From: Azonexus sp.
GTDB lineage: Bacteria; Pseudomonadota; Gammaproteobacteria; Burkholderiales; Rhodocyclaceae
DNA: 42,813 nucleotides
Assembly (NCBI GenBank): GCA_030691385.1
Contig: JAUYEI010000033.1
Location: forward strand, 1 to 42,813
Direction: 5' to 3'
Within the stretch, counting starts at the first letter, position 1; every line of letters starts with the position of its first letter. Shown piece by piece: positions 7,164 to 42,813 of this stretch. The notes under the pieces are model-generated. The model made no database searches, was not told the origin of the DNA, and saw only the letters and a list, made by a program, of their open reading frames with translations. A program made the position numbers and the translations under genes.

Positions 7164-7212
7164 CAAGTTTGGCCATTTTCACATTTCACGTCATAAAACC
7201 GGTTGACCGTGG
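7164..7212 (-). repeat. Dispersed motif, copy 1 (non-coding)
   Basis: The 14-mer core CCACGGTCAACCGG lies on the minus strand at 7199-7212. Its downstream flank (7164-7198 read backwards) is A/T-rich and carries AATGGCCAAA, but 24 bases from the core, not the 7 seen in the other copies. It sits between the corC-like promoter region and the PEP-CTERM gene terminator. Confidence 0.75.
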
Positions 7213-8920: not shown

Positions 8921-8949
8921 GCCCCCATCATGGCGGGGGCATGTGCCCC
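8921..8949 (+). promoter_or_regulatory. Alternative hairpins in the smc leader
   Basis: Three GC segments overlap in pairing: GCCCCC (8921-8926) can pair with GGGGGC (8935-8940), or GGGGCA (8936-8941) can pair with TGCCCC (8944-8949). The two stems exclude each other. The second ends 13 bases before the smc start. This is a pairing observation only; no ligand or factor is evident. Confidence 0.35.
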
Positions 8950-8962
8950 GCCGGAATCAGGC

Positions 8963-11900
8963 ATGCGTCTTACCAAACTCAAACTCGCCGGCTTCAAGTC
9001 CTTCGTCGATCCGACCTCCGTTGCCGTTCCCGGCCAGCTCGTCGGTGTCGTTGGCCCCAATGGCTGCGGCAAATCCAACATCATGGATGCCGTGCGCTGG
9101 GTGCTGGGCGAGTCGAAGGCTTCCGAGCTGCGCGGCGAGTCGATGATGGACGTCATCTTCAACGGCTCGTCGAACCGCAAGCCGGTGTCGCGGGCTTCCG
9201 TCGAGCTGATTTTCGACAACCTGCTTGGCCGGGCGCTCGGCCAGTGGTCGCAATACACCGAATTGTCGGTCAAGCGCACGCTGACCCGGCAGGGGCAGTC
9301 GGACTACTTCATCAACAACCTGAAGGTCCGGCGCAAGGACATCACCGATCTGTTCCTCGGCACCGGCCTTGGCCCGCGCGCCTACGCCATCATCGGCCAG
9401 GGGATGATCTCGCGCATCATCGAGGCGCGGCCGGATGACCTGCGCGTCTTCCTCGAAGAAGCGGCTGGTGTCACGCGTTACAAGGAGCGGCGCAAGGAAA
9501 CGAACGGCCGTCTGGAAGACACCCGCGAAAACCTGCTGCGCGTCGAGGATATCCGCCAGGAACTCGGCAACCAGATGGAACGGCTCGAAGCGCAGGCCGA
9601 AGTGGCGCGCCGCTACCAGGGTCTGAACGAACAGCTAGTGCTGCGCCAGCAGGTGTTGTGGCTGCTCAGGAAGCATGAAGCCGAGGCCGAGCGGCAAAAG
9701 CTGTCGCTCGATGTCGAGCGCGCCGTGACCGAGCTCGAAGCGCAAAGCGCCGCACTGCGCGAAACCGAGGTGCGAGCCGAGGAAACGCGTGAAGCCCATT
9801 TTGCTGCTGGCGACGCCTTGCACAACGCGCAGAGCGACATGTACTCGGCGAACGCCGAGGTGGCGCGGCTGGAAGCGGAAATCCGGCATCGTCGCGAATC
9901 GCGCAGCCAGCTCGAAGCGCGCCTGACCCAGCTCGAAGACGAGCTCAAGCACTGGAGCGACACGGCCGAAAAGCTCAGCGAAGATCGTCTGAAATGGGAA
10001 GAGGCGCAGGAAATCACCAGGCTGCGCGTCGAGGAGGCCGAGGCGAAGCTGCACGAGCAGATGAACATCGCGCCGCAGGTCGAGGAAGACCACGCCCAGG
10101 CGCAGGAAGAACTGCAACGCCTCAAGACGCGGACGACCAACGGCGAGCAGAAACTGGAAGTCGAGCTGACCAACAAGTCGCACGCCCAGCGCGCGCTGCA
10201 GGCCATCATCCAGCGCCGCGAACGGCTGCGCGAGGAAACCGGCGGGATCAACCCGCCGGACGAACTGGATCTCGCCGAGAAGGAAGAAGAGCTCGCCCTG
10301 CTGCGTGAGGAACTGGCCGGCGATCAGGATCAGCACCAGCAATTGCAGCAGGAAATGCCGCAGCTCGAGGCCTGCCGCAAGGAAGCGCAGGCCGAAGTGC
10401 AGCGTATCGAACGCGAATTGGCGGCCGGTCAGGCCCGCCGCGCCGCGCTCGAGCAGATGCAGGCGCGGACGCAGCAGAGCGGCAAGTTGCCGGAATGGCT
10501 GCGTCGCCACGACCTTGAAAAAGCGCCACCGCTGTGGCAGAAGATTCACGTCGAAGCCGGCTGGGAAGAGGCGGTCGAAGCGGTATTGCGCGAGCGTTTG
10601 AGCGCCATCGCCTGCGACGATCCGGCCAAGCTCGACGAATGGCTGCACGACCGGCCGGAAGCGCGGCTCAGCGTGGTGCTGCCGGGCGATTTCAATTTTG
10701 GCCCAAATTTCCGGTTGACCGTGGAAGTGCTCTCGGCGCGGGTGCGCAGCGATTCGCCGGCCATCCAGGCCGTGCTTGACGACTGGCTGGGCCAGGTGCG
10801 CACGGCGGAAACGCTGGCCGAGGCGCTGGCCGTGCGGGCCGACCTGCCGCCGGGGGCGGTCATCGTGACGCGCGGTGGCGATCTGGTCAGCGCCGCCAGC
10901 GTCACCTTCTTCGCGCCGGATCAGGGCGAACACGGCCTGCTCGAACGTCAGCGCGAGATCGAAACGTTGGGCGAGGGCATCGCCATGGCCGAGGAAAAGG
11001 TCGACGCCATCCGCGAGCAGCTAGTCATGTTCGACGAGCAGGTCGAGGACAAGCAGGCCGAAATGGGTGAGATCCGGCAGTACGTCGCCGACCGCCAGCA
11101 GCGTGTGCATGCCGTGCAGATGGACGTGCTCAAGCTGGCGCAGGCCATCGAGCGCCACAAGGAGCAGAAGGAACGCCTGCAGGAGCAATTGGCCGAACTG
11201 GCCGAGGAAGAAGAGGGCGAGCGCGAACGCGACATGTCGGCCGACGAGCGCATCGTGGAAATCCGCGATGGTTTGAGCCGCATCCGCGTGCTGGTCCACG
11301 GCGCGCAAACGCGGCTCGACGAATGCGAACGCGCCGTGCGCGCCGAGCGCGAGCGCAATTCCGATCTCGACCGCGCCTTGCGCGAAGCCCAGTTCTCGCT
11401 GCGCGAATGCGACGGCAAGCTGCAGGACGTCTTCGCCCAGCAGGCGGTGGCCCAGCGCGAGCTGAGCCGCATCGAAAAGGACCGCGCCCAGTGCGCCGAG
11501 CAGGTCGAGGCTGCCCCGCCGGACGTCATGGAAGGCGCGCTGCAGGTGGCGCTCGAAGCGCGGCAGGCGGCAGAAAAAGTACTGGCCGAAAAGCGCGACG
11601 CGCTCGAAGCGGCGACCAACGCGTTGCGTGGCTTTGAGGAGCAGCGCTTGCGCATCGAGCAGGGTTTGGAGCCGTTACGTGTGCGGATCGGCGATTTGAA
11701 ATTGAAGGAGCAGGCGGCGGCGCTCAATGCCGAGCAGTTCGCCATGCAACTGCTCGAAGCCGGCGCCAATGAAGAGGTGCTGCAAGCCGAACTCGGCAAC
11801 GCAAAGCCAGCCGGCCTGCAAGGCGAAATCACCCGGCTGACCAACGCCATCGCCGAACTTGGCGCCGTCAACATGGCCGCCTTGCAGGAACTGGAAACGG

Positions 11901-12475
11901 CGACCGAGCGCAAGGGTTACCTCGACATGCAGGCAGCCGACCTCAACGAGGCCATGGAAACCCTGGAAAACGCCATCCGCAGCATCGACCGCGAAACGCG
12001 TGAGCTGCTGAAATCAACCTTCGATACGGTCAACGGCCATTTCGGCCAGCTTTTCCCGGAACTCTTCGGTGGCGGCCGGGCCGAGCTGGTGATGACCGGT
12101 GACGAAATTCTCGATGCCGGCGTCCAGGTCATCGCCCAGCCGCCGGGCAAGAAAAACTCGACCATCCATCTGCTCTCCGGCGGCGAGAAGGCGCTGACGG
12201 CCATTGCGCTGGTCTTCTCGATGTTCCAGCTCAATCCGGCGCCGTTCTGCCTGCTCGACGAAGTCGATGCGCCGCTTGACGACAGCAATACCGAACGTTT
12301 CTGCACCATGGTGAAGAAAATGTCAGGTGCAACGCAATTCCTGTTCATTTCCCATAATAAAATCGCCATGGAAATGGCCGAACAGCTGGTCGGCGTCACC
12401 ATGCAGGAGAGCGGCGTATCGCGCGTGGTGGAAGTGGATATTCAGGAAGCTTTGAAAATGAGGGATGCGGCTTAA
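8963..12475 (+). CDS. smc: Chromosome segregation protein SMC
   Basis: The 1170-residue SMC ATPase organises and compacts the chromosome, normally with ScpA and ScpB (not in this window). N-terminal Walker A GPNGCGKSN at 31-39. Long coiled coils rich in Glu/Arg/Gln (about 165-495 and 660-1000) flank a hinge near 500-650. The C-terminal signature LSGGEKALTA and Walker B FCLLDEVDAPLDDSN lie near 1070-1120. Start chosen at MRLTKLKLAGFKSF, the conserved SMC N-terminus; the frame runs 11 codons upstream. The stop directly abuts zipA. A copy of the dispersed 14-mer motif lies inside it at 10711. Confidence 0.97.
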   Translation: MRLTKLKLAGFKSFVDPTSVAVPGQLVGVVGPNGCGKSNIMDAVRWVLGESKASELRGESMMDVIFNGSSNRKPVSRASVELIFDNLLGRALGQWSQYTELSVKRTLTRQGQSDYFINNLKVRRKDITDLFLGTGLGPRAYAIIGQGMISRIIEARPDDLRVFLEEAAGVTRYKERRKETNGRLEDTRENLLRVEDIRQELGNQMERLEAQAEVARRYQGLNEQLVLRQQVLWLLRKHEAEAERQKLSLDVERAVTELEAQSAALRETEVRAEETREAHFAAGDALHNAQSDMYSANAEVARLEAEIRHRRESRSQLEARLTQLEDELKHWSDTAEKLSEDRLKWEEAQEITRLRVEEAEAKLHEQMNIAPQVEEDHAQAQEELQRLKTRTTNGEQKLEVELTNKSHAQRALQAIIQRRERLREETGGINPPDELDLAEKEEELALLREELAGDQDQHQQLQQEMPQLEACRKEAQAEVQRIERELAAGQARRAALEQMQARTQQSGKLPEWLRRHDLEKAPPLWQKIHVEAGWEEAVEAVLRERLSAIACDDPAKLDEWLHDRPEARLSVVLPGDFNFGPNFRLTVEVLSARVRSDSPAIQAVLDDWLGQVRTAETLAEALAVRADLPPGAVIVTRGGDLVSAASVTFFAPDQGEHGLLERQREIETLGEGIAMAEEKVDAIREQLVMFDEQVEDKQAEMGEIRQYVADRQQRVHAVQMDVLKLAQAIERHKEQKERLQEQLAELAEEEEGERERDMSADERIVEIRDGLSRIRVLVHGAQTRLDECERAVRAERERNSDLDRALREAQFSLRECDGKLQDVFAQQAVAQRELSRIEKDRAQCAEQVEAAPPDVMEGALQVALEARQAAEKVLAEKRDALEAATNALRGFEEQRLRIEQGLEPLRVRIGDLKLKEQAAALNAEQFAMQLLEAGANEEVLQAELGNAKPAGLQGEITRLTNAIAELGAVNMAALQELETATERKGYLDMQAADLNEAMETLENAIRSIDRETRELLKSTFDTVNGHFGQLFPELFGGGRAELVMTGDEILDAGVQVIAQPPGKKNSTIHLLSGGEKALTAIALVFSMFQLNPAPFCLLDEVDAPLDDSNTERFCTMVKKMSGATQFLFISHNKIAMEMAEQLVGVTMQESGVSRVVEVDIQEALKMRDAA
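10691..10727 (-). repeat. Dispersed motif, copy 2 (inside smc)
   Basis: The minus-strand core CCACGGTCAACCGG (10711-10724) is preceded by CTT, giving the 17-mer CTTCCACGGTCAACCGG. It is followed by AAATTTG, then GGCC and AAAATTGAAAT. On the coding strand it gives the peptide FRLTVEV in the hinge region of SMC. Confidence 0.85.
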
Positions 12476-17406: not shown

Positions 17407-17955
17407 ATGGATTTGAAAAAAGCACAGGCCATGCTGGCCAATGCCGAACTGATACACAGCGAAGCGGCTGTCCAGGGCGCGGTGGCCGAAGTCGCCGCCG
17501 CCATTCGTGAACGGCTGGCCGACAAATACCCGCTCGTACTTTGCGTGATGACCGGTGGGGTGGTCTTCTGCGGTCAACTGCTCACCAAGCTCGATTTTCC
17601 GCTCGACTTCGACTACCTGCACGCCACGCGCTACGGCCCGGAAACACAGGGCGGCAAGATTTCCTGGCGCTCGGCACCGTGGACCTCGGTCAAGGGCCGC
17701 TCGGTGCTGGTCGTCGACGACATCCTCGATGAAGGCGTGACGCTCGCCGCCGTCAAGGAAAGCCTGCGCCGCATGGGCGCCGAAGAAGTCCTCACGGCCG
17801 TTTTCGCCGACAAGCTCAACGGCAAGGAAAAGCCGATTGCCGCCGATTTCGTCGGCCTGACCGTGCCCGACCGCTTCGTCTTCGGTTTCGGTATGGATGC
17901 CGGCGGCGTCTGGCGCAACCTGCCGGCCGTCTATGCCATGAAGGACGACGCGTGA
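17407..17955 (+). CDS. hpt: Hypoxanthine-guanine phosphoribosyltransferase
   Basis: The 182-residue purine salvage enzyme transfers hypoxanthine (or guanine) to PRPP, giving IMP/GMP. The PRPP loop VLVVDDILDEGVTLAAVKES (about 99-118) is diagnostic for type I phosphoribosyltransferases. PLVLCVMTGGVVFCGQLL (about 41-58) is the N-terminal PPi-binding loop region. It starts directly after galU and overlaps the following methyltransferase (GTGA). Two genes downstream sits a methylthioinosine phosphorylase, which releases hypoxanthine, so the pair would form a salvage route. Confidence 0.88.
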   Translation: MDLKKAQAMLANAELIHSEAAVQGAVAEVAAAIRERLADKYPLVLCVMTGGVVFCGQLLTKLDFPLDFDYLHATRYGPETQGGKISWRSAPWTSVKGRSVLVVDDILDEGVTLAAVKESLRRMGAEEVLTAVFADKLNGKEKPIAADFVGLTVPDRFVFGFGMDAGGVWRNLPAVYAMKDDA

Positions 17956-18653
17956 GCGGTGCGACGGTCGCCGAGTTCATCGGCTACTGGGAAAACGAAG
18001 GACAGGCTTACGTCCGGCGTGGCGATTACGACTGGATGGCGGCGCTGGTCCCCGGCCAGCGCGTGTTGGAGATCGGCTGCGGCGTCGGCTTCGCCACGCA
18101 GGCGCTGGCCAGGCGGGGTTTGACGGTGCTCTCCATCGACTCGCTGGTCGAATGTCTGGACCTGACGCGGCAACGCGTTGAAGGCAGTGATGTGACACTG
18201 ATGCAGGCCGATCTGACTGAACTCTCAGACGAGCAGCGCGCCGCCATCGAAGCCTTCGCGCCCGATGCCGTTGTCTGCTGGCTCATGGGCGCGCCGGCCA
18301 AAATAACGGGCGCGGTGGCAACGGATTCCGGCCGGGCGGTGATCGCCTATCGCGAGAAGTTGCATCGTCTGGTCGCCGAACTGGTGGCCTGCCTGCCGAC
18401 CGTGCAGGCGCTGCATTTCATCGACCGCACGGCGATTCCGTGGCAGGCCAAGGACATCGGACGCGATACGCTGGTCAATTACCATGCAGGCAAGACGCTG
18501 CTCAATCTACCGTTCGTTGCCGTACGGGCCAATGCTCTATATCGCAAGCTGGGCGACGATACGGTCAACAACGCCCCAAACCGTAAAACGCACCCATCGC
18601 TCAAGGGCGTGGTGCCGACGCTGGCTTCGTTGCTGGCGGAAAGGAAAAAATAA
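17952..18653 (+). CDS. Class I SAM-dependent methyltransferase, substrate unknown
   Basis: The 233-residue protein starts with GTG overlapping the hpt stop. GQRVLEIGCGVGFATQALARRG (about 34-55) is motif I of Rossmann-type methyltransferases, followed by the acidic VLSIDS strand (about 58-63) and a plausible motif II/III (DVTLMQADLTEL). The C-terminal half has no domain I recognise. Position between hpt and the phosphorylase suggests a role near methionine/purine salvage, but that rests on context alone. Confidence 0.7.
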   Translation: MSGATVAEFIGYWENEGQAYVRRGDYDWMAALVPGQRVLEIGCGVGFATQALARRGLTVLSIDSLVECLDLTRQRVEGSDVTLMQADLTELSDEQRAAIEAFAPDAVVCWLMGAPAKITGAVATDSGRAVIAYREKLHRLVAELVACLPTVQALHFIDRTAIPWQAKDIGRDTLVNYHAGKTLLNLPFVAVRANALYRKLGDDTVNNAPNRKTHPSLKGVVPTLASLLAERKK

Positions 18654-19540: not shown

Positions 19541-21754
19541 ATGAACAATCAAAGCCCTTCCCGCAGCGCGCTTCGGGAGATTTCAGGCGGTCCTCCTGTT
19601 GGCGCTGATGGCAACCAGCGTGTCGCCTTCCTGTGGCGGACTGCATATTCGTTTGTCCTGACATTCGCTCTGCTCGGCACCGCCGATCAAGTGGTGGCCC
19701 AGACGACTGACGGACGCATTCCGTCGAAGGTCCGCAGTCAGCTCGAGCGCGAAGAGCCTGCCAACGTGCTTGTGCACCTCGCTGAGGATGTCGCACTGCT
19801 GCCGGAATCCGGACGCAAGGCGGCGGGTACCCGGCCAGCGCTCCGTCGTGCCATCAAGGAGCAGATGCTGACTGCCCTTGTTGGCAAGGACCTGGAACGC
19901 CTTAAAACATACGATCAACTGCCGATGCTGGCGGTGCGCGTGCGCAATATCGCTGCGCTGGAACGTCTGGCTGCACGCAGCGAAGTTCTCGAAATTTACG
20001 AGGACATCCCGCTTTATGCCATCCTGAGCCAGAGCCTGCCGCTGATTGGCCAGCCGACGGCCAGCGCTGCCGCGCAGCAGGGGAGCGGGACGGCGATTGC
20101 GGTGCTGGATACCGGGGTCGATTACACCAACGCCCAATTCGGCAGTTGCACGGCGCCAGGAACGCCCGCCGGATGCAAGGTGGCGGTCGCCCTGGACACC
20201 GCGCCCGACGATGGTGTGCGGGACGCCAACGGCCACGGTTCAATGGTGGCCGGCATTGCTTCCGCCACGGCGCCGGCCGCCAACATCATTGCTCTGGATG
20301 TCTTCGACGGTAGCAGTGCTTCAAGCGTCGATGTCGTCGATGCCATCAACTGGGTGATCGCCAATCGGACCGCTTACAACATCACGGCCATCAACATGAG
20401 CCTCGGTGGCAGCACCAAATACACCAGCACGTGCACCGCCGGTAATCCATTTCGCGTGGCGATTCAGGCGGCGCGTGCCGACGGTATCGTCAGTTTCGTT
20501 GCCAGTGGTAACGATGGATACCCCGATGGCATTTCCATGCCGGCGTGTACCTCGGGTGCGGTTGCGGTGGGCGCAGTCTACGATGCCAATGTTGGCAATG
20601 TGAACTGGGGTGTATGCAGCGACAGCACCACGAGCGCTGACAAGGTAGCCTGTTTCTCCAATAGTGCCAGCATGCTTGCTCTGCTCGCCCCGGGGGCTTT
20701 GATCAGCGTGCTCGGCTCGTCGGGCGGTGGTACCTCTTTTGCCGCACCGCACGCGGCCGGGGCCTATGCCGTCCTGCGCGGGGCGCGCCCGGCAGAGGCC
20801 TCTGAGACTGCGTTAGCTCGCCTGAGCAACTACGGTGTGGCTGTCACCGATAGCCGAAACGGCTTTACCTTTCCGCGCATCAATCTGGTGGCCTCCCTGC
20901 AACTACCGGCCAATGATCTCTTCGCTGCGGCGACGGTCATTTCGGGTAGCAGCGGTTCGGTTTTTGGCAATTCCGAGTTGTCGACCGCAGAAGCCAGCGA
21001 ACCGGCACATGCCGGAGTTTCGCCCAACCGCTCGGTGTGGTGGAAGTGGACGGCGCCGGCCGGCGGCGATGCAACCTTCACCACCAGCGGCAGCGGATTC
21101 GACACGGTACTCGCCGCCTATACCGGCAGCGCGGTTGGCGCGCTGGCCTCTGTCGCCACCAACAATAACGAATCGGGCACGGTCGTGACCAGCAAGATCA
21201 CCTTTCGCGCCCTGGCCGGGACCACCTATTACCTGGCCGTTGCCGGCAATGCCGGGGCCACAGGTGCCGTCTCACTGAACTGGAGCCTGGTCGAGCCGGT
21301 GGCAGATCTGTCCGTGACCTTGATGGCAACGCCCGATCCGGCAGTGGCCGGTAGCGATATCACCTACACGGCGACGGTCACCAACAACGGTCCCTACATG
21401 GCGGAATCGGTGCTGCTCAACATCACGCTGCCGGTCGATGCGACCGTTCGTTCGGCCAGCAGTGGCTGCACGGTGGCGGTTGGCGCGGTCGCCTGCGTGC
21501 TTGGCAACATGACGGTGGCTCAATCGCTGACCCGGCAGGTTGTCGTGCTGGCGGCAGCGGCCGGGAGCCTGACGCTGTCGGCCAGTGTCGACGGGGCATG
21601 GAGCGATCTGGTGGCGAGCAACGATAGCGCCAGTGGTTCGGTGGTCGTTGTCGCAGCGCCGAGCAGTGACAATGGTGACGTACCCTTGCCCGCCTGGAGC
21701 CTGCTGTTGATGGTGGTGGCCCTGTGGCGCGGCGTCGTTACGAGCCGGCGCTGA
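19541..21754 (+). CDS. Secreted S8 subtilisin-like protease with exosortase-type tail
   Basis: The 737-residue protein has a long signal peptide (hydrophobic about 34-48, cut near VAQ at 54), a propeptide-like segment (about 55-165) and a subtilase domain with D190, H232, oxyanion N324 and S399 (GGGTSFAAPHAAG). Next are a PPC-like beta-sandwich (about 455-575) and a DUF11-type repeat (about 587-680). The last 27 residues form VPLPAW, a short hydrophobic helix and TSRR, similar to IPTL-CTERM sorting tails. An exosortase H-like gene faces it. I infer that it is exported, sorted by XrtH and released or anchored at the cell surface. Its stop overlaps the facing gene by 17 bases. Confidence 0.87.
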   Translation: MNNQSPSRSALREISGGPPVGADGNQRVAFLWRTAYSFVLTFALLGTADQVVAQTTDGRIPSKVRSQLEREEPANVLVHLAEDVALLPESGRKAAGTRPALRRAIKEQMLTALVGKDLERLKTYDQLPMLAVRVRNIAALERLAARSEVLEIYEDIPLYAILSQSLPLIGQPTASAAAQQGSGTAIAVLDTGVDYTNAQFGSCTAPGTPAGCKVAVALDTAPDDGVRDANGHGSMVAGIASATAPAANIIALDVFDGSSASSVDVVDAINWVIANRTAYNITAINMSLGGSTKYTSTCTAGNPFRVAIQAARADGIVSFVASGNDGYPDGISMPACTSGAVAVGAVYDANVGNVNWGVCSDSTTSADKVACFSNSASMLALLAPGALISVLGSSGGGTSFAAPHAAGAYAVLRGARPAEASETALARLSNYGVAVTDSRNGFTFPRINLVASLQLPANDLFAAATVISGSSGSVFGNSELSTAEASEPAHAGVSPNRSVWWKWTAPAGGDATFTTSGSGFDTVLAAYTGSAVGALASVATNNNESGTVVTSKITFRALAGTTYYLAVAGNAGATGAVSLNWSLVEPVADLSVTLMATPDPAVAGSDITYTATVTNNGPYMAESVLLNITLPVDATVRSASSGCTVAVGAVACVLGNMTVAQSLTRQVVVLAAAAGSLTLSASVDGAWSDLVASNDSASGSVVVVAAPSSDNGDVPLPAWSLLLMVVALWRGVVTSRR

Positions 21755-22998: not shown

Positions 22999-25557
22999 CT
23001 AGACTTTCAGCCGCTCCATCAGCTCGGTTTCCAGGCGGATGCGTTTGCCGGTGTCGCGCAGGTCGCCGCCGCTGATCAGGAAAACGTCTTCAGCCCGCTC
23101 GCCGAGCGTCGTGATCTTGGCGGTATGGAGGAAGGCACCGTGTTCGGCCAGCGTATTGGCGACGGTGTAGAGCAGGCCGGGGCGGTCGGCGGCGACCAGC
23201 GAGAGGATGAAATGCGAACCCTTTTCGTCGCCGCGGATGCCGACTTCGGGCTTGATCGGGAAATGCTTGACCTGCCGCGACAGGCGCCCGGTTGACGGGA
23301 TATCCGGCGGCATCTGGTGCAGCAGGCGCTGTTCCAGTTCGTGTTCGATGTAGGCGACCATTTCGCGGTCGTTGTCGCGATTTTCGACATCCAGGACGAC
23401 GAAGCTGTCGAGCGCGTAGCCATGCGCCGTCGTGTGAATCTTGGCATCGACGATGCTGTAGCCGGCGCGGGCGAAGAAGCCGACGATACGGGCGAAAAGG
23501 TCGGGCTGGTCCTGGGTGTAGACCATGACCTGGAGGCCTTCGCCTTCCTGATAGGGGCGGGCGCGGACGACCGGCTGGTTGTTGTAGATGCGGTAGTGCA
23601 GCGAGCGCGTGTGCCAGGCGATTTCTTCGGCCGAATGGCGCAGGAAGTAGACGGTATCGAGCTGTTTCCACAGTCGCTCGTGAACGGTGTCGGAAAGGGC
23701 GAAGAAGCGCAGCAGGCGCATCGCTTCGGCCTGACGTTCGGCAATCACGCCGTGCCCGGCCGGGGCGTTTCCGCTCGAGAGGTGATGCAGCGCCTGGTAA
23801 TAGAGGTCGGCCAGCAGCTTGCCTTTCCAGTGGTTCCAGACTTTCGGGCTGGTGCCTCGGATGTCGGCATGGGTCAGCAGATAGAGGGCCTGCAGGTGGC
23901 GGATGTCGCCGACCAGTTTGAGGAATTTGTCGATCACGTCCGGATCGCTGAGGTCTTCTTTTTGCGCAACCTGCGACATGACCAGGTGGTTCCTGACCAG
24001 CCAGACGACCAGTTCGGTGTCTTCCACGGTCAACCGGTGATTTTGGCAAAATTCCAAAGCATCGACGGTACCGAGCTCGGAGTGATCGCCGCCGCGGCCC
24101 TTGGCGATGTCGTGGAAGAGGGCGGCAATGTAGAGCAGCCACGGGCGGTCGAGTTCGCTGACGATGCGCGAGCACAAGGGATATTCGTGGGCGAACTCGC
24201 TCATCGTGAAGCGGCGGATGTTGCGCAGAACTTGCAGGATGTGCTGATCGACGGTGTACACGTGGAACAGGTCATGCTGCATCTGGCCGACGATGCGTCC
24301 GAAGTTGGGCAGGTAGGCGCCAAGAATGTCGAGCTGGTTCATGCGCCGGAATTCATGAATGATGCCGCGCTCGCTTTGCAGCAGCTTCAGGAACATGGCC
24401 CGGTTGACCGGATCACCCCGGAATTCCGGGGTGATCTGTTCGCGGGCACGCCACAGGGCGCGCAGGGTGCGCGTGGTCATGCCGGAGAGTTCGTGAGTTT
24501 CCTGCATGACGAGGAAGCTGTCGAAAATGGCCGACGGCTGTTTTTCGAACAGGGATTCGTCCCGGATGTCGAGCAGGTTGCCGACCATCTGGAAATGGTC
24601 ATCGAGCGGCTGCGGTGTCTGTTCGTTTTCCGGGGTCAGCGCCGCCGCCATGTTTTGCAGCAGGATGGTATTGAGCAGGCTGACCGTTTTTGCATTGCGG
24701 TAATAGACCTGCATGAGTTGCTCGGACGCACGCTTTGCTTCGTTCGAGACAAATCCGTACTTGGCGGCCAGGTTGCTCTGGTGGTCGAAAAGCAGGCGAT
24801 CTTCGCGCCGCCCGAGCATGAAATGCAGGCGTATGCGCAGGTGCGACAGGTATTCCTGGCATTCTCTGCCCTGGATCATGCCCTCCAGGGTGATCATGCC
24901 GTTTTTGTGCAGTTCCGCCCAGGTCGAGCCATATCCAGCCGCCTTGGCTATCCAGAAAATGACCTGAAAATCGCGCAGGCCGCCCGGGGAGTCTTTGCAG
25001 TTGGGCTCGAGGCTGTAGGGTGTTTCGTTGAAACGGAGGTAACGCTCCTGTTGCTCGATCTGCTTGGCTTCACAGAAGACGAGTGGATCGAGATGACCGC
25101 GCAGGCGTTTCTCGAAAGTCGCGAAGAGCTTGGCATTGCCGGTCAGCAGGCGAGCCTCAAGCAAGGCAGTCTGCACCGTGATGTCGTTTTCGGCTTCTTC
25201 CAGGCAGTCCAGGATGGTGCGGACACTGTGCCCGATCTCGAGGCCGATATCCCAGAAGGAGCCGATCAGGCGTTCCAGCTTTTCCTGCAGCGCGCTGTTC
25301 GCCTCCTTGGGCAGCAGGATGAGCAGGTCGATATCGGAGGCCGGGTAAAGTTCGCCGCGACCATAGCCGCCGACGGCAGCCAGGGCCAGAGTGGCCGGAA
25401 AGTCGAACGATCCCCAGAGTTTTTCGAGAACGCTGTCGACTTCCCGACAGCGTTCGCCGAGCAGGGCATCGGCATCGCCGGTTCGTTCGTAATTTTCCTG
25501 AAGGCGGATCTGGGCCGCCTTGACTTCAGCCCGCAGGGCGGCGACATCGCAGGGCAT
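22999..25557 (-). CDS. glnD: [Protein-PII] uridylyltransferase/uridylyl-removing enzyme
   Basis: An 852-residue bifunctional nitrogen sensor that modifies PII (GlnB/GlnK) in response to glutamine. N-terminal nucleotidyltransferase with [15 protein letters not shown] (63-77; D75 and D77 bind metal), a GlnE/UTase linker, an HD domain with [16 protein letters not shown] near 495, and two C-terminal ACT domains (about 670-750 and 780-850) that bind glutamine. Start [11 protein letters not shown] overlaps the map stop (ATGA), so map-glnD are coupled. A copy of the dispersed motif lies at 24024, where the coding strand gives [10 protein letters not shown] in the HD domain. Confidence 0.96.
24021..24058 (+). 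repeat. Dispersed motif, copy 3 (inside glnD)
   Basis: CTTCCACGGTCAACCGG (24021-24037) is followed by TGATTTT, then GGCA and AAATTCCAAA. Core and 5' CTT equal the smc copy; the spacing of 7 to GGC is the same. On the glnD coding strand it gives RLTVE, also found at the smc copy. Confidence 0.85.
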
Positions 25558-26357: not shown

Positions 26358-26473
26358 GGCTGCTGCTCTGTGGTGCGTTGGCAAAGAGGAAGGATAAAGG
26401 ATGGGGCTGGTTTCGCAAAGCTGACAGCGCCCCAAGTGGCATACTTGGCGTTTTCGATTTGACGGATTTTCCG

Positions 26474-27385
26474 ATGACGATTCTTCTGCTCGGCAAGGAC
26501 GGCCAGGTTGGCTGGCAGCTACAGCGTTCGCTGGCGCCGCACGGTCCGGTCGTGGCTTGTGCCCGCGCGCAATGCAATTTGTCCGACCCGGAGCAGATTC
26601 GTTCCGTTGTTCGTCGGGTGCGGCCCTCGGTCATCGTCAACGCCACCGCCTACACCGCTGTCGACAAGGCCGAGTCTGAACCCGAGCTGGCGCACCGCAT
26701 CAATGCCGAGGCGCCGGGCATTCTGGCCGAGGAGGCCGCCATGCTCGGCGCCTTGCTCGTCCATTATTCGACCGACTATGTCTACGACGGCAGCAAGGCC
26801 TCGCCTTATGTCGAAACCGACCCGACGGCGCCGCAGAGCGTTTACGGGCGGAGCAAGCTGGCCGGCGAGGAGGCGATTCGCGCTGTGGGCGGCCGCTCGC
26901 TGATCTTCCGCACGAGCTGGGTATTCGGCGCGCGCGGTGGCAATTTCGTCAAGACCATCCTGCGTCTGGCGCGGGAAAAGGACAGCCTCAATGTCGTCGA
27001 TGACCAGATTGGCTCGCCGACGCCGGCGGCGCTGATCGCGACGGTGACCGGCGTCGTGCTGGCCATGGTTCGCCACGGTCAACCGGAAAAAATGGCCAAA
27101 AATGAAATTTACCATCTGGCCGCGGCACGGCCCGTTAGCTGGTGCGAGTTTGCCCGGACCATCGTCGGCCTGGCCGGGCAGGCGCCGGGCTTCGATCTGC
27201 GTCTGAAACCGGAGGCGATTCGCGCCATCACGACAGCGGAATATTCGACCGCGGCCCGGCGCCTGGCCAATTCGCGTCTCGACTGCACCCGTCTCGAAAC
27301 TGACTTCAGCTTGCAGATGCCCGACTGGCAAGCTTATCTGGAGCGCATGCTGCAGTTGCTGGCGCTCAAGCAGAACGGTTATTGA
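26474..27385 (+). CDS. rfbD: dTDP-4-dehydrorhamnose reductase
   Basis: The 303-residue NADPH-dependent SDR-family enzyme performs the last step of dTDP-L-rhamnose synthesis. N-terminal ILLLGKDGQVGWQL binds cofactor; VHYSTDYVYDG and the YGRSK active-site pair (Tyr/Lys) are present, as is the RTSWVFG motif. rfbA, rfbB and rfbC are absent nearby, so it is isolated. Start at MTILLLGKDG (26474); an upstream extension is not family-like. A dispersed-motif copy at 27073 codes HGQPEKMAKNE just before the conserved YHLAA, a stretch that seems a few residues longer than in RfbD proteins I know. Confidence 0.9.
   Translation: MTILLLGKDGQVGWQLQRSLAPHGPVVACARAQCNLSDPEQIRSVVRRVRPSVIVNATAYTAVDKAESEPELAHRINAEAPGILAEEAAMLGALLVHYSTDYVYDGSKASPYVETDPTAPQSVYGRSKLAGEEAIRAVGGRSLIFRTSWVFGARGGNFVKTILRLAREKDSLNVVDDQIGSPTPAALIATVTGVVLAMVRHGQPEKMAKNEIYHLAAARPVSWCEFARTIVGLAGQAPGFDLRLKPEAIRAITTAEYSTAARRLANSRLDCTRLETDFSLQMPDWQAYLERMLQLLALKQNGY
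27073..27108 (+). repeat. Dispersed motif, copy 4 (inside rfbD)
   Basis: The core at 27073-27086 is followed by AAAAAAT, GGCC and AAAAATGAAAT. It matches the copy at 42612 at 35 of 36 positions. The A-rich tail stands out from the GC-rich gene around it. Confidence 0.9.
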
Positions 27386-30607: not shown

Positions 30608-31369
30608 ATGGCCCTCTTTTCAAGTTCAACACGACAGGTTCCGCCAGCAGCGGTCGTGCCCCGGCACGTCGCCGTCATCATGGATGGCAATGGCCGCTGG
30701 GCAAAAAAACGCTTCCTGCCGCGCGTCACCGGCCACGTCAAAGGCGTCGAGCTGGTCCGCGAAATGGTTCGCGCCTGTCTTGAACGCGGCATCCAGTACC
30801 TGACACTCTTTGCGTTTTCGTCCGAAAATTGGCGTCGACCGCAGGATGAGGTTTCGCTGCTCATGCAGCTCTTCGTCAAGGCGCTTGAGCAGGAGGTGGA
30901 CAAACTGGACCGCAATGCTGTTCGCCTGCGCATCATCGGCGACTTGTCGCGTTTCGAGCCCCGTCTGCAAGAGCTGATTCGGCAGGCCGAGGCGAGGACT
31001 GCCGACAATACCCGTCTCGACCTGACCATCGCCGCCAACTACGGCGGACGCTGGGACATCATGCAGGCGACCAATCACATGCTGGCCGCCCAGCCCGAAA
31101 AGCGCGATGGCTGGCAGGAGAGTGATCTCGAGCCGCATTTGTCGATGAATTTCGCGCCGGAACCCGATCTGTTCATTCGCACCGGCGGCGAGGAGCGGAT
31201 CAGCAATTTCCTGCTCTGGCAACTGGCCTACACCGAATTCTATTTCACGCCCATTCTCTGGCCGGATTTCGACACGGCCGAGTTCGACAAGGCGATCACG
31301 TCGTTCCAGCAGCGCGAACGGCGCTTTGGCCGAACCAGCGAACAACTGACGGAAAGTCCGAATGCTTAA
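30608..31369 (+). CDS. uppS: Di-trans,poly-cis undecaprenyl-diphosphate synthase
   Basis: The 253-residue cis-prenyltransferase makes undecaprenyl diphosphate, the lipid carrier of peptidoglycan and O-antigen. [16 protein letters not shown] (residues 20-35) contains catalytic D26. [14 protein letters not shown] and the C-terminal [23 protein letters not shown] are family signatures. The reading frame overlaps cdsA by 8 bases. The 27-base gap after frr has no terminator. Confidence 0.97.
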
Positions 31370-41541: not shown

Positions 41542-42308
41542 AGCTGATCCAGTCGCGTGACAACCCGTTTTTCAAGTCGCTGAAACGGCTGGCCGAATCC
41601 GGGCGCGAGCGCCGGAAAACCGGGCAGACGCTGCTCGACGGCGTGCATCTGGTCGAGGCTTACGAGGCCGTGTTCGGGCCGGTGGAAACCTTGATCGTTG
41701 CCGAGTCGGCATTGGCTGGCGGCGAAATTTCTGCCTTCGCTGAAGGCCGGGAAACGGTCGTCCTGGCCGATAGCCTGCTGCGCGACCTCGGGCTGGTCGA
41801 TACGCCGAGCGGTTTGCTGGCGGTGGCGAAGATGCCGACCGCGATTGCTGCGGTCGACGGCAAAAAAGACGCAATTTTGCTCGACGGCGTACAGGACCCC
41901 GGCAATGTCGGCACCTTGCTGCGTACGGCGGCGGCCGCCGGCATTGAGCAGGCGCTGCTGGCGCCGGGCTGCGCCTCAGCCTGGTCGCCCAAGGTTTTGC
42001 GCGCCGGGCAGGGGGCGCACTTTGCTCTGGCTATCCATGAAGAGTGCGATCTGGCTGGCTTCATGGCCGGCTACGAAGGCACGACGGCGGTTACCTGTCT
42101 GGACGGTGCCACGTCACTTTATGCGGCGCGTTTGGATGGACCGATTGCCTGGGTATTTGGCGCCGAAGGGCTGGGGGTGCGGAGTGAACTGATCGAAGCG
42201 GCTGGGCTTCGTATCAAGATACCGATGCCCGGTCCGGTCGAGTCGCTGAATGTGGCTGCAGCCGCGGCGGTTTGTTTGTTTGAGGTTGTGCGGCGGCGGC
42301 TGGGCTGA
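41538..42308 (+). CDS. SpoU/TrmH-family RNA 2'-O-methyltransferase
   Basis: The 256-residue enzyme has an N-terminal substrate-binding domain (about 1-95, [21 protein letters not shown]) and a C-terminal SPOUT knot. The three motifs are visible: [31 protein letters not shown] and [17 protein letters not shown]. It methylates ribose in rRNA or tRNA; the target cannot be told from sequence (RlmB-like and TsnR-like members look alike). It overlaps rnhB (ATGA) and is the last gene of the operon. Confidence 0.92.
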
Positions 42309-42358
42309 GGCTGTATTACAAGGTAATTGGCTTGGGTTTCCGCCTTGCTGGCGGGCGT

Positions 42359-42386
42359 ACTTTCTTTTGCTTCGCCAAAAGAAAGT
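42359..42386. repeat. Perfect 11-bp hairpin after the operon end
   Basis: ACTTTCTTTTG (42359-42369) and its exact complement (42376-42386) flank CTTCGC. It lies 50 bases past the last gene. There is no T-run after it on the plus strand. From memory, the hairpin sequence with the trailing TAGCCAAAGG is a frequent intergenic repeat in proteobacterial genomes. Confidence 0.6.
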
Positions 42387-42443
42387 AGCCAAAGGCGGGG
42401 TTCATCGCTAGCGCAGCTAAAAGGCGACCCCGAGGGCGGCGCC

Positions 42444-42813
42444 GGCTTTGCCGGTCCCTTGCGCTACTCGGCAGGCCGGGCGGCTGCGGAACTCGGGCTA
42501 CGCCCTCAGACAGTCCTCGCCGAAGGCCCCCGGCCTACCTGCGTTGCTCAGCGCCTTCCACGGGGGCCCCAAAGGCGTCCACGCTCGACTGTCGTTCCCA
42601 AAAACCGACTTCCACGGTCAACCGGAAAAAACGGCCAAAAATGAAATCTGTTATTCAGGCACCCAAGCTCAAACCCGGATTGTTTCACCGGGCCCCTTGA
42701 GAGGTGCCGAGCAAAGCAGGGGCTGGCGGAAAAAGGGCGAGGACTGTCTGAGTGCGCATCCCGAGTTCCGCAGCCCCCGCCAGACCCGAGTAGCTCAGGG
42801 AACCGGCGCAGCC
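42444..42813. repeat. Long inverted repeat, right arm cut by window end
   Basis: Left arm 42444-42521 and right arm 42736-42813 are inverted copies with most of 78 positions matching (for example GGCGAGGACTGTCTGAG is exact), around a 214-base centre that holds a copy of the dispersed motif. The right arm reaches the window edge, so its true length is unknown. 42309-42813 shows no gene: open frames there are low-complexity Arg/Pro/Gly/Ala translations of the repeat. It may be a non-autonomous repeat element. Confidence 0.7.
42609..42647 (+). repeat. Dispersed motif, copy 5 (in the inverted-repeat centre)
   Basis: CTTCCACGGTCAACCGG is followed by AAAAAAC, GGCC and AAAAATGAAAT. It is nearly identical over 36 bases to the rfbD copy, though the wider surroundings are unrelated. 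Confidence 0.9.

Follow-up and report, generated by a model that had tools for sequence, protein, structure and literature searches.

A dispersed CGGTCRAC motif with phased A/T tracts as a candidate DNA uptake signal in the Dechloromonas/Azonexus group

Introduction

Two families of mostly animal-associated bacteria, the Pasteurellaceae and the Neisseriaceae, provide the known reference systems for self-DNA uptake signals, and the reasons why such signals evolve are still debated. The uptake signal sequences (USS) of Pasteurellaceae comprise a core (Hin type AAGTGCGGT, Apl type ACAAGCGGT) and two A/T segments, whereas the DNA uptake sequences (DUS) of Neisseriaceae (ATGCCGTCTGAA and its dialects) are recognized by the receptor ComP. 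In the USS, the two A/T segments are spaced roughly by single helical turns, and the sites are not insertions and number about one copy per kb (PMC1626085). The DUS fall into eight dialects around an invariant CTG core (PMC3630211), and a further article names ComP as the DUS receptor and PpdA/ComN as the predicted USS receptor (PMC12616744). Uptake bias combined with recombination is described as leading to sequence accumulation, with the shape of the A/T tracts affecting uptake (PMC7811141). Further material on such signals is given in PMC12236230. As of 2006, no uptake signal was known from transformable bacteria beyond these two families (PMC1626085), and a 2020 study named the same two (PMC7811141).

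Here we analyse a dispersed motif in a 42,813-nucleotide stretch (the window) of an Azonexus sp. genome of 3,448,501 bases (3.45 Mb) in 129 contigs, referred to as G000. A sequence-only reading of the window had pointed to a repeated 14-mer, CCACGGTCAACCGG, as a possible uptake sequence or other genome-wide signal. We compare the motif with the described systems, follow it through the genus, which is probably the Dechloromonas/Azonexus group (Azonexaceae in NCBI), and weigh other explanations for it.

Results

All five exact copies of CCACGGTCAACCGG that had been reported were recovered, at 7199 and 10711 on the reverse strand and at 24024, 27073 and 42612 on the forward strand (Table 1). Their excess over chance also held, as the window contains 7 matches with at most two mismatches against 0.54 expected and none of 100 shuffles reached 7. 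The 5' CTT described for three copies is common to those at 10711, 24024 and 42612, and the layout of an A/T tract, GGCC or GGCA, and a second A/T tract is present in the four of five for which it had been described, the copy at 7199 being without it. Three copies lie in coding genes as proposed, named by Pfam as an SMC gene (10711), glnD (24024) and rmlD (27073), and the two called non-coding (7199 and 42612) fall under no open reading frame of at least 150 aa. In rmlD, the peptide encoded by the motif adds about four residues relative to two solved RmlD proteins, with no 12-residue insertion. The proposed density of one copy per 8.6 kb stands as a figure for the window but not for the genome, where the exact 14-mer occurs once per 15.6 kb.

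Table 1. Motif copies, generalised sites and host genes in the window
Feature	Position	Strand	Remark
Exact CCACGGTCAACCGG at 7199-7212 with degenerate A/T tracts, non-coding	7177..7212	-	
Full element CCACGGTCAACCGG-AAATTTG-GGCC-AAAATTGAAAT, antisense in SMC gene	10689..10724	-	one mismatch to consensus
Element CCACGGTCAACCGG-TGATTTT-GGCA-AAATTCCAAAG, antisense in glnD	24024..24059	+	orthologous site in G147
Perfect-consensus element CCACGGTCAACCGG-AAAAAAT-GGCC-AAAAATGAAAT, sense in rmlD	27073..27108	+	
Perfect-consensus element, non-coding, within ~500 bp dispersed repeat	42612..42647	+	
Generalised site CGGTCAAC-N15-WWWW (TGCGGTCAAC form), phosphoribosyltransferase gene	17571..17597	+	
Generalised site CGGTCAAC-N15-WWWW, methyltransferase gene	18562..18588	+	
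Generalised site CGGTCGAC-N15-WWWW, subtilase-family gene	20961..20987	-	
Generalised site CGGTCGAC-N15-WWWW, uppS (undecaprenyl diphosphate synthase)	30815..30841	-	
Generalised site CGGTCGAC-N15-WWWW, SpoU-family rRNA methylase gene	41851..41877	+	
SMC gene, host of 10711 site	8930..12475	+	
glnD, host of 24024 site	22999..25557	-	
rmlD (dTDP-4-dehydrorhamnose reductase), host of 27073 site	26378..27385	+	listed ORF start; RmlD domain from residue 33

Across the whole genome the motif is no mere handful of copies. G000 holds 221 copies of the exact 14-mer (118 forward, 103 reverse), against 1 for the reversed pattern, and 790 sites of the generalised form CGGTCRAC-N15-WWWW, or one per 4.4 kb, against 15 in the reversed control. 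Alignment of 35 copies gave an element of about 36 bp, consisting of CCACGGTCAACCGG, AAAWWW, one variable base, GGCC, AAAAWT, G and AAAT, with T at -2 in 32 of the 35 and no consensus in the flanks further out. This 36-mer pattern, with at most three mismatches, had 234 matches and none in the control. Counted from the first C in six sampled motif-rich genomes, A/T peaks stand at about +13 to +15 and +24/25 and GC dips at +19/20 and +28; the window dialect has an extra A/T peak at +30. The longer element has a CGGTCRAC core ahead of A/T tracts that are spaced by about a helical turn, and CCACGGTCAACCGG represents one of its dialects. A second over-represented word, TTGAAACCTCAG, occurs 14 times in 430 kb of G000 (L055-L074 plus the window) against 0.04 expected and is unrelated to this motif.

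The exact 14-mer proved to be a local form. Among 150 genomes of the family including G000, only G000 contained hundreds of copies, and the three other members of the genus in that set contained 0, 5 and 11. A k-mer count without a preset motif in a relative, G147, gave CACGGTCGAC as the top 10-mer (104 in 400 kb against 7.4 expected). Its copies keep the plan of the element around an altered core, the A tract spanning +14 to +17 and the W tract +24 to +28. The stretches of G112 yielded no comparable over-represented word by k-mer counts. The top 12-mer excess in this motif-poor genome (L095-L114) came from GTCATTCCCGCG repeats, which we take to be REP-like. Samples of 200 kb from each of four further genomes showed the window dialect in G336 and G305, TGCTGCGGTCAAC and GGTCAACCGGAAA in G281, and GCGGTCGAC in G222. 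The part common to these dialects is CGGTCRAC, 15 free bases and then A/T.

Counting this generalised motif against a reversed control in all 76 genomes of the genus separated 40 motif-rich genomes, with 391-1785 sites, from 28 with at most 60; eight were intermediate at 88-159, and no control count exceeded 31. The maximum was 27 sites (G031, control 5) in 285 family genomes of other genera and 37 (G645, control 13) in 291 further genomes of the order. A narrower search with CACGGTCRAC misses the dialects without CAC, finding 66 and 56 sites in G062 and G201 (controls 27 and 24), which carry 989 and 994 generalised sites. At least 102 stretches contain the window dialect, under record titles that include Dechloromonas sp., Azonexaceae bacterium and Rhodocyclaceae bacterium, or only Betaproteobacteria, Gammaproteobacteria or Proteobacteria bacterium. 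Outside the genus, G031 and also G125 (21 against 9) show a weak excess of the generalised motif, and locus L032 of G125 has one full-length copy of the window dialect; occasional transfer out of the genus is possible.

Set beside the Pasteurellaceae USS, the motif is similar in having a short GC-containing core, two 3' A/T segments roughly one helical turn apart, and hundreds to thousands of copies that occur in both orientations and in genes, are largely not insertions, and differ in type between subclades. The dialects of G222 and G281 contain GCGGT, which also ends both Pasteurellaceae cores, although five shared letters may be coincidence. It differs in its core, CGGTCRAC with 5' dialect bases, in the bacterial class in which it occurs, and in density, as the 40 motif-rich genomes carry a site every 2 to 8 kb or so, compared with about one per kb. 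Points in common with the Neisseriaceae DUS are the occurrence in Betaproteobacteria, the confinement to a single clade, the existence of several dialects whose inner core does not vary and, in one species (G147), head-to-head pairs near gene ends. Unlike the motif described here, the DUS has no flanking motifs (PMC1626085).

The described cores themselves were not clearly enriched. The USS cores AAGTGCGGT and ACAAGCGGT occur 1 and 2 times in 430 kb of G000 against 3.2 expected each, and 3 and 4 times in 800 kb of G147 against 6.0; the highest of the seven samples was G222, with 4 against 1.6 expected. The DUS core GCCGTCTGAA was found 3 times in G000 (1.0 expected), not at all in G147 (1.9 expected) and at most twice in each of the other five samples, and two other DUS dialect strings had 0-1 copies in the seven samples. 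Thus, we do not class the motif as a member of either system, although, to the extent that sequence can show, it behaves like them.

Sites are spread through the chromosome in a manner that bears on several explanations. In the complete chromosome of G147, 40 stretches of 20 kb hold a mean of 7.0 sites each with a variance-to-mean ratio of 1.06, which is near Poisson, and give no indication that sites are confined to the terminus or origin region. Leading and lagging strands, assigned in this one complete genome by the GC skew of each stretch, carry 138 and 142 sites, so there is no replication-strand bias. A replication- or recombination-polar signal of the KOPS, Chi or matS kind would also be short, frequent and genome-wide, as this motif is, but the balanced strands and near-Poisson counts of G147 speak against it, and KOPS, Chi and matS are unlike the motif in length and A/T tracts; we regard such a signal as extremely unlikely. 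Spacing is more even than random in the best-sampled genomes. Its coefficient of variation is 0.70 in both G147 and G000, against 0.91 and 0.88 for random placement, with 0 and 2 of 500 random sets as even. Evenness is also clear in G281, where 5 of 500 random sets matched it. By the same measure, in samples of 200 kb each, it was marginal in G305 (37 of 500) and non-significant in G336 (325 of 500) and G222 (111 of 500).

More than half of the sites are genic in five of six genomes, the exception being G336, and coding sites occur in both orientations. The counts, for which genes were called by a simple codon-usage script, are 60 of 98 in G000, 166 of 280 in G147, 15 of 32 in G336, 30 of 53 in G305, 46 of 60 in G281 and 58 of 65 in G222. 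As about 80-86% of the DNA is coding, intergenic DNA is enriched for sites in all of these genomes except G222. Narrower patterns gave 18 coding and 20 intergenic sites in G000 and 96 and 53 in G147, the coding share in G000 falling below that of the generalised motif.

Head-to-head pairs with a common palindromic core and outward A/T tracts number 34 in G147 (L075-L094, L281-L300), 21 of them being intergenic. Intergenic sites in this genome favour convergent gene ends (41 of 109) over divergent promoters (7 of 109), each of which accounts for 19% of intergenic bases, so the head-to-head sites may double as bidirectional terminators. These two patterns are what could be expected if the motif were a set of transcription terminators or regulatory sites that share a core by chance. 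However, the mainly genic location of sites in five of six genomes and the rarity of such pairs in the other genomes (1 in G000 and G281, 2 in G222, 0 in G336 and G305) leave this explanation with hardly any probability. Use as a terminator looks secondary, as it does for the DUS pairs of Neisseria.

Evolution at orthologous places was followed in stretches that were not picked site by site, replacing an earlier, biased set of 108 ortholog pairs in which many loci had been chosen by the motif. With motif-rich target genomes, 153 of 223 comparisons showed an intact core at the aligned position, twice the rate of control 8-mers, although these are not independent since one orthologous pair may count from both sides. 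Control 8-mers, allowed the same transition, were intact in 7264 of 20912 cases (34.7%) at 83% flank identity; we prefer this control to one using the core at shifted positions (0 of 1549), which is too easy. The conservation in relatives that the sequence-only reading had looked for is therefore seen. In G112, an intermediate, motif-poor target (98 sites, control 13), the core was intact in 10 of 52 comparisons and controls in 1439 of 4904 (29.3%), the former being not clearly below the control rate. These rates suggest that sites are held in motif-rich species and not in this one motif-poor species. The dialect can also switch at one place, as at the SMC site, which reads CTTCCACGGTCAACCGG in the window and CTTTCACGGTCGACGCC in G147.

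Where an orthologue lacks the core, the net length over 155 bp is the same in 61 of 103 comparisons, which again are not independent, and in 423 of 487 control segments; the carrier is at least 24 bp longer in 9 of 103, against 3 of 487. Most differences are thus substitutions, while the greater frequency of indels at lost sites than elsewhere suggests that a part of the sites may be gained or lost through indels. Spread by insertion, as a short REP- or MITE-like mobile repeat, would fit these longer carriers, and some non-coding copies (window 42612, L001, L005, L015) do have common flanks, being part of a dispersed repeat of about 500 bp. Against such an origin are the absences without length change, the genic location of most sites in five of six genomes, the flanks, which lack a consensus except in repeat-borne copies, and the viral contigs, none of which matched the exact window dialect. 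The A/T positions take either A or T, which would be more in keeping with selection for DNA shape than with copying. We consider a mobile repeat very improbable, and the confinement to a mobile element that had been held out as a counter-indication was not seen, given 60 genic sites among the 98 sampled in G000 and 0 matching viral contigs. Likewise, unit insertion, shared ends and a mainly non-genic location, which would characterize a REP/MITE element, were not what we found; a minority of copies lies in the dispersed repeat.

The repeat that holds the 42612 site occupies about 490 bp of the window (42325-42813), is non-coding and has internal inverted parts. Its relatives, at about 75-92% identity, occur on other G000 contigs, in G336, G305 and G147, and in named MAGs.

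Competence genes, which the sequence-only reading had proposed to look for, are present in G000 and also in motif-poor relatives. G000 encodes ComEC (C34:34528, an open frame of 782 aa), DprA (C105:52435, 360 aa) and type IV pilins, with 16 matches to the type IV N-methyl signal, 15 of them over the cut-off and none assigned as ComP. By names read from their sequences, these matches include a PilA-like protein, a fimT-pilV-pilW-pilE-like cluster on C103, an MSHA-like cluster on C3 and type II secretion pseudopilins. FimT/GspH is present in G000 and in 69 of the 76 genus genomes, motif-rich and motif-poor alike, and its C-terminal residues, compared by eye at 30 loci, did not separate the two groups. 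The comEC gene of G000 itself carries a perfect-core copy of the motif (L280, G000:C34:28001-40000), with an ungapped variant at this site in G177 and small gaps in the alignment of two others.

ComEC was detected in 71 and DprA in 75 of the 76 genus genomes, motif-poor ones included; DprA was not found in motif-rich G346. A ComEC match was absent from motif-poor G308, G328, G354 and G360 and from motif-rich G331 (74% complete). The gene is split, truncated or edge-cut in motif-poor G313, G343, G303 and G306 and in motif-rich G293, G323, G346 and G311, being interrupted or in pieces in G323 and G293. As both groups include genomes with incomplete or missing comEC, we rejected its presence or integrity as the cause of the difference between motif-rich and motif-poor genomes. 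In G323 (C33:109525-144033) and G343 (C1:2218607-2251879), a gap of about 33-34 kb separates the pieces of comEC, which break at the same domain position in both genomes (model positions 28/26 and 29/26); the first G323 piece falls below the cut-off, and both splits look like insertion of one kind of element.

The main rival explanation is that a nucleoid or chromosome-organising protein specific to the genus binds the motif, with phased A/T tracts bending DNA inside the cell. Genome-wide spread in G147 without strand bias, even spacing in some genomes, A/T phasing of about 10 bp and conservation at orthologous places would fit this explanation equally. However, it does not readily account for several dialects within one genus or for the scarcity of the motif in 28 of 76 genomes, most of which retain comEC and dprA. 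Additionally, the distribution in G147 gives no hint of a limitation to terminus or origin, and architectural proteins usually tolerate degenerate sites. We judge such a protein site unlikely.

Discussion

We propose that the Dechloromonas/Azonexus group has a DNA uptake signal of which CCACGGTCAACCGG represents the local dialect, a reading to which we assign a probability of roughly 0.8. The USS-like interpretation first offered for the window is thereby favoured as the best explanation, on evidence drawn from genome comparison; the system of dialects, the core common to the genus and its scarcity in some of the species were beyond what the window by itself could reveal. We also think it probable, with slightly less confidence, that the motif marks a further self-DNA uptake-signal system that evolved separately in Azonexaceae, outside the Pasteurellaceae and Neisseriaceae. 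Such a system would combine a genus-wide CGGTCRAC core and phased A/T tracts with several dialects, which would have diverged as sites at shared orthologous positions were converted; between about a third and a half of the species would have lost it or never acquired it. We infer preferential uptake, a receptor and competence itself in these bacteria, and the motif-poor species probably lost the signal rather than never having had it. The earlier statement that no such signal is described in this group is consistent with our search of titles and abstract starts in the open-licence literature, where none of the papers listed concerned the signal or the letters CGGTCAACCGG; nor was there a report of uptake or transformation for these bacteria among those listed.

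A plausible mechanism would begin with a receptor associated with type IV pili that binds double-stranded DNA carrying CGGTCRAC and dialect-specific 5' bases. Bending or melting of this DNA at the outer-membrane pore may then be aided by the A/T tracts, which lie a helical turn from each other at about +14 and +24, a role modelled on the proposal for Pasteurellaceae USS. ComEC and DprA would import a strand and pass it to recombination. Sites born by mutation could spread and persist by molecular drive, because signal-bearing fragments would be favoured in uptake and recombine at the homologous locus. Such drive would produce hundreds of spaced copies in both orientations and within genes. A receptor that altered its specificity would bring about a shift of dialect, and sites would decay once uptake had been lost.

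If this explanation is correct, the motif represents a separate case of self-DNA recognition outside the Pasteurellaceae and Neisseriaceae, in environmental bacteria of water and sludge. The co-existence of motif-rich and motif-poor species and of several dialects within one genus would amount to a natural experiment on how uptake specificity originates, changes and is lost. It would also offer a comparative route to the receptor, through pilins whose sequence tracks the dialect across about 40 species. The Dechloromonas/Azonexus group includes wastewater denitrifiers and phosphorus accumulators that are known largely from metagenomes. A working transformation signal could, if the proposal holds, help to make these bacteria genetically tractable.
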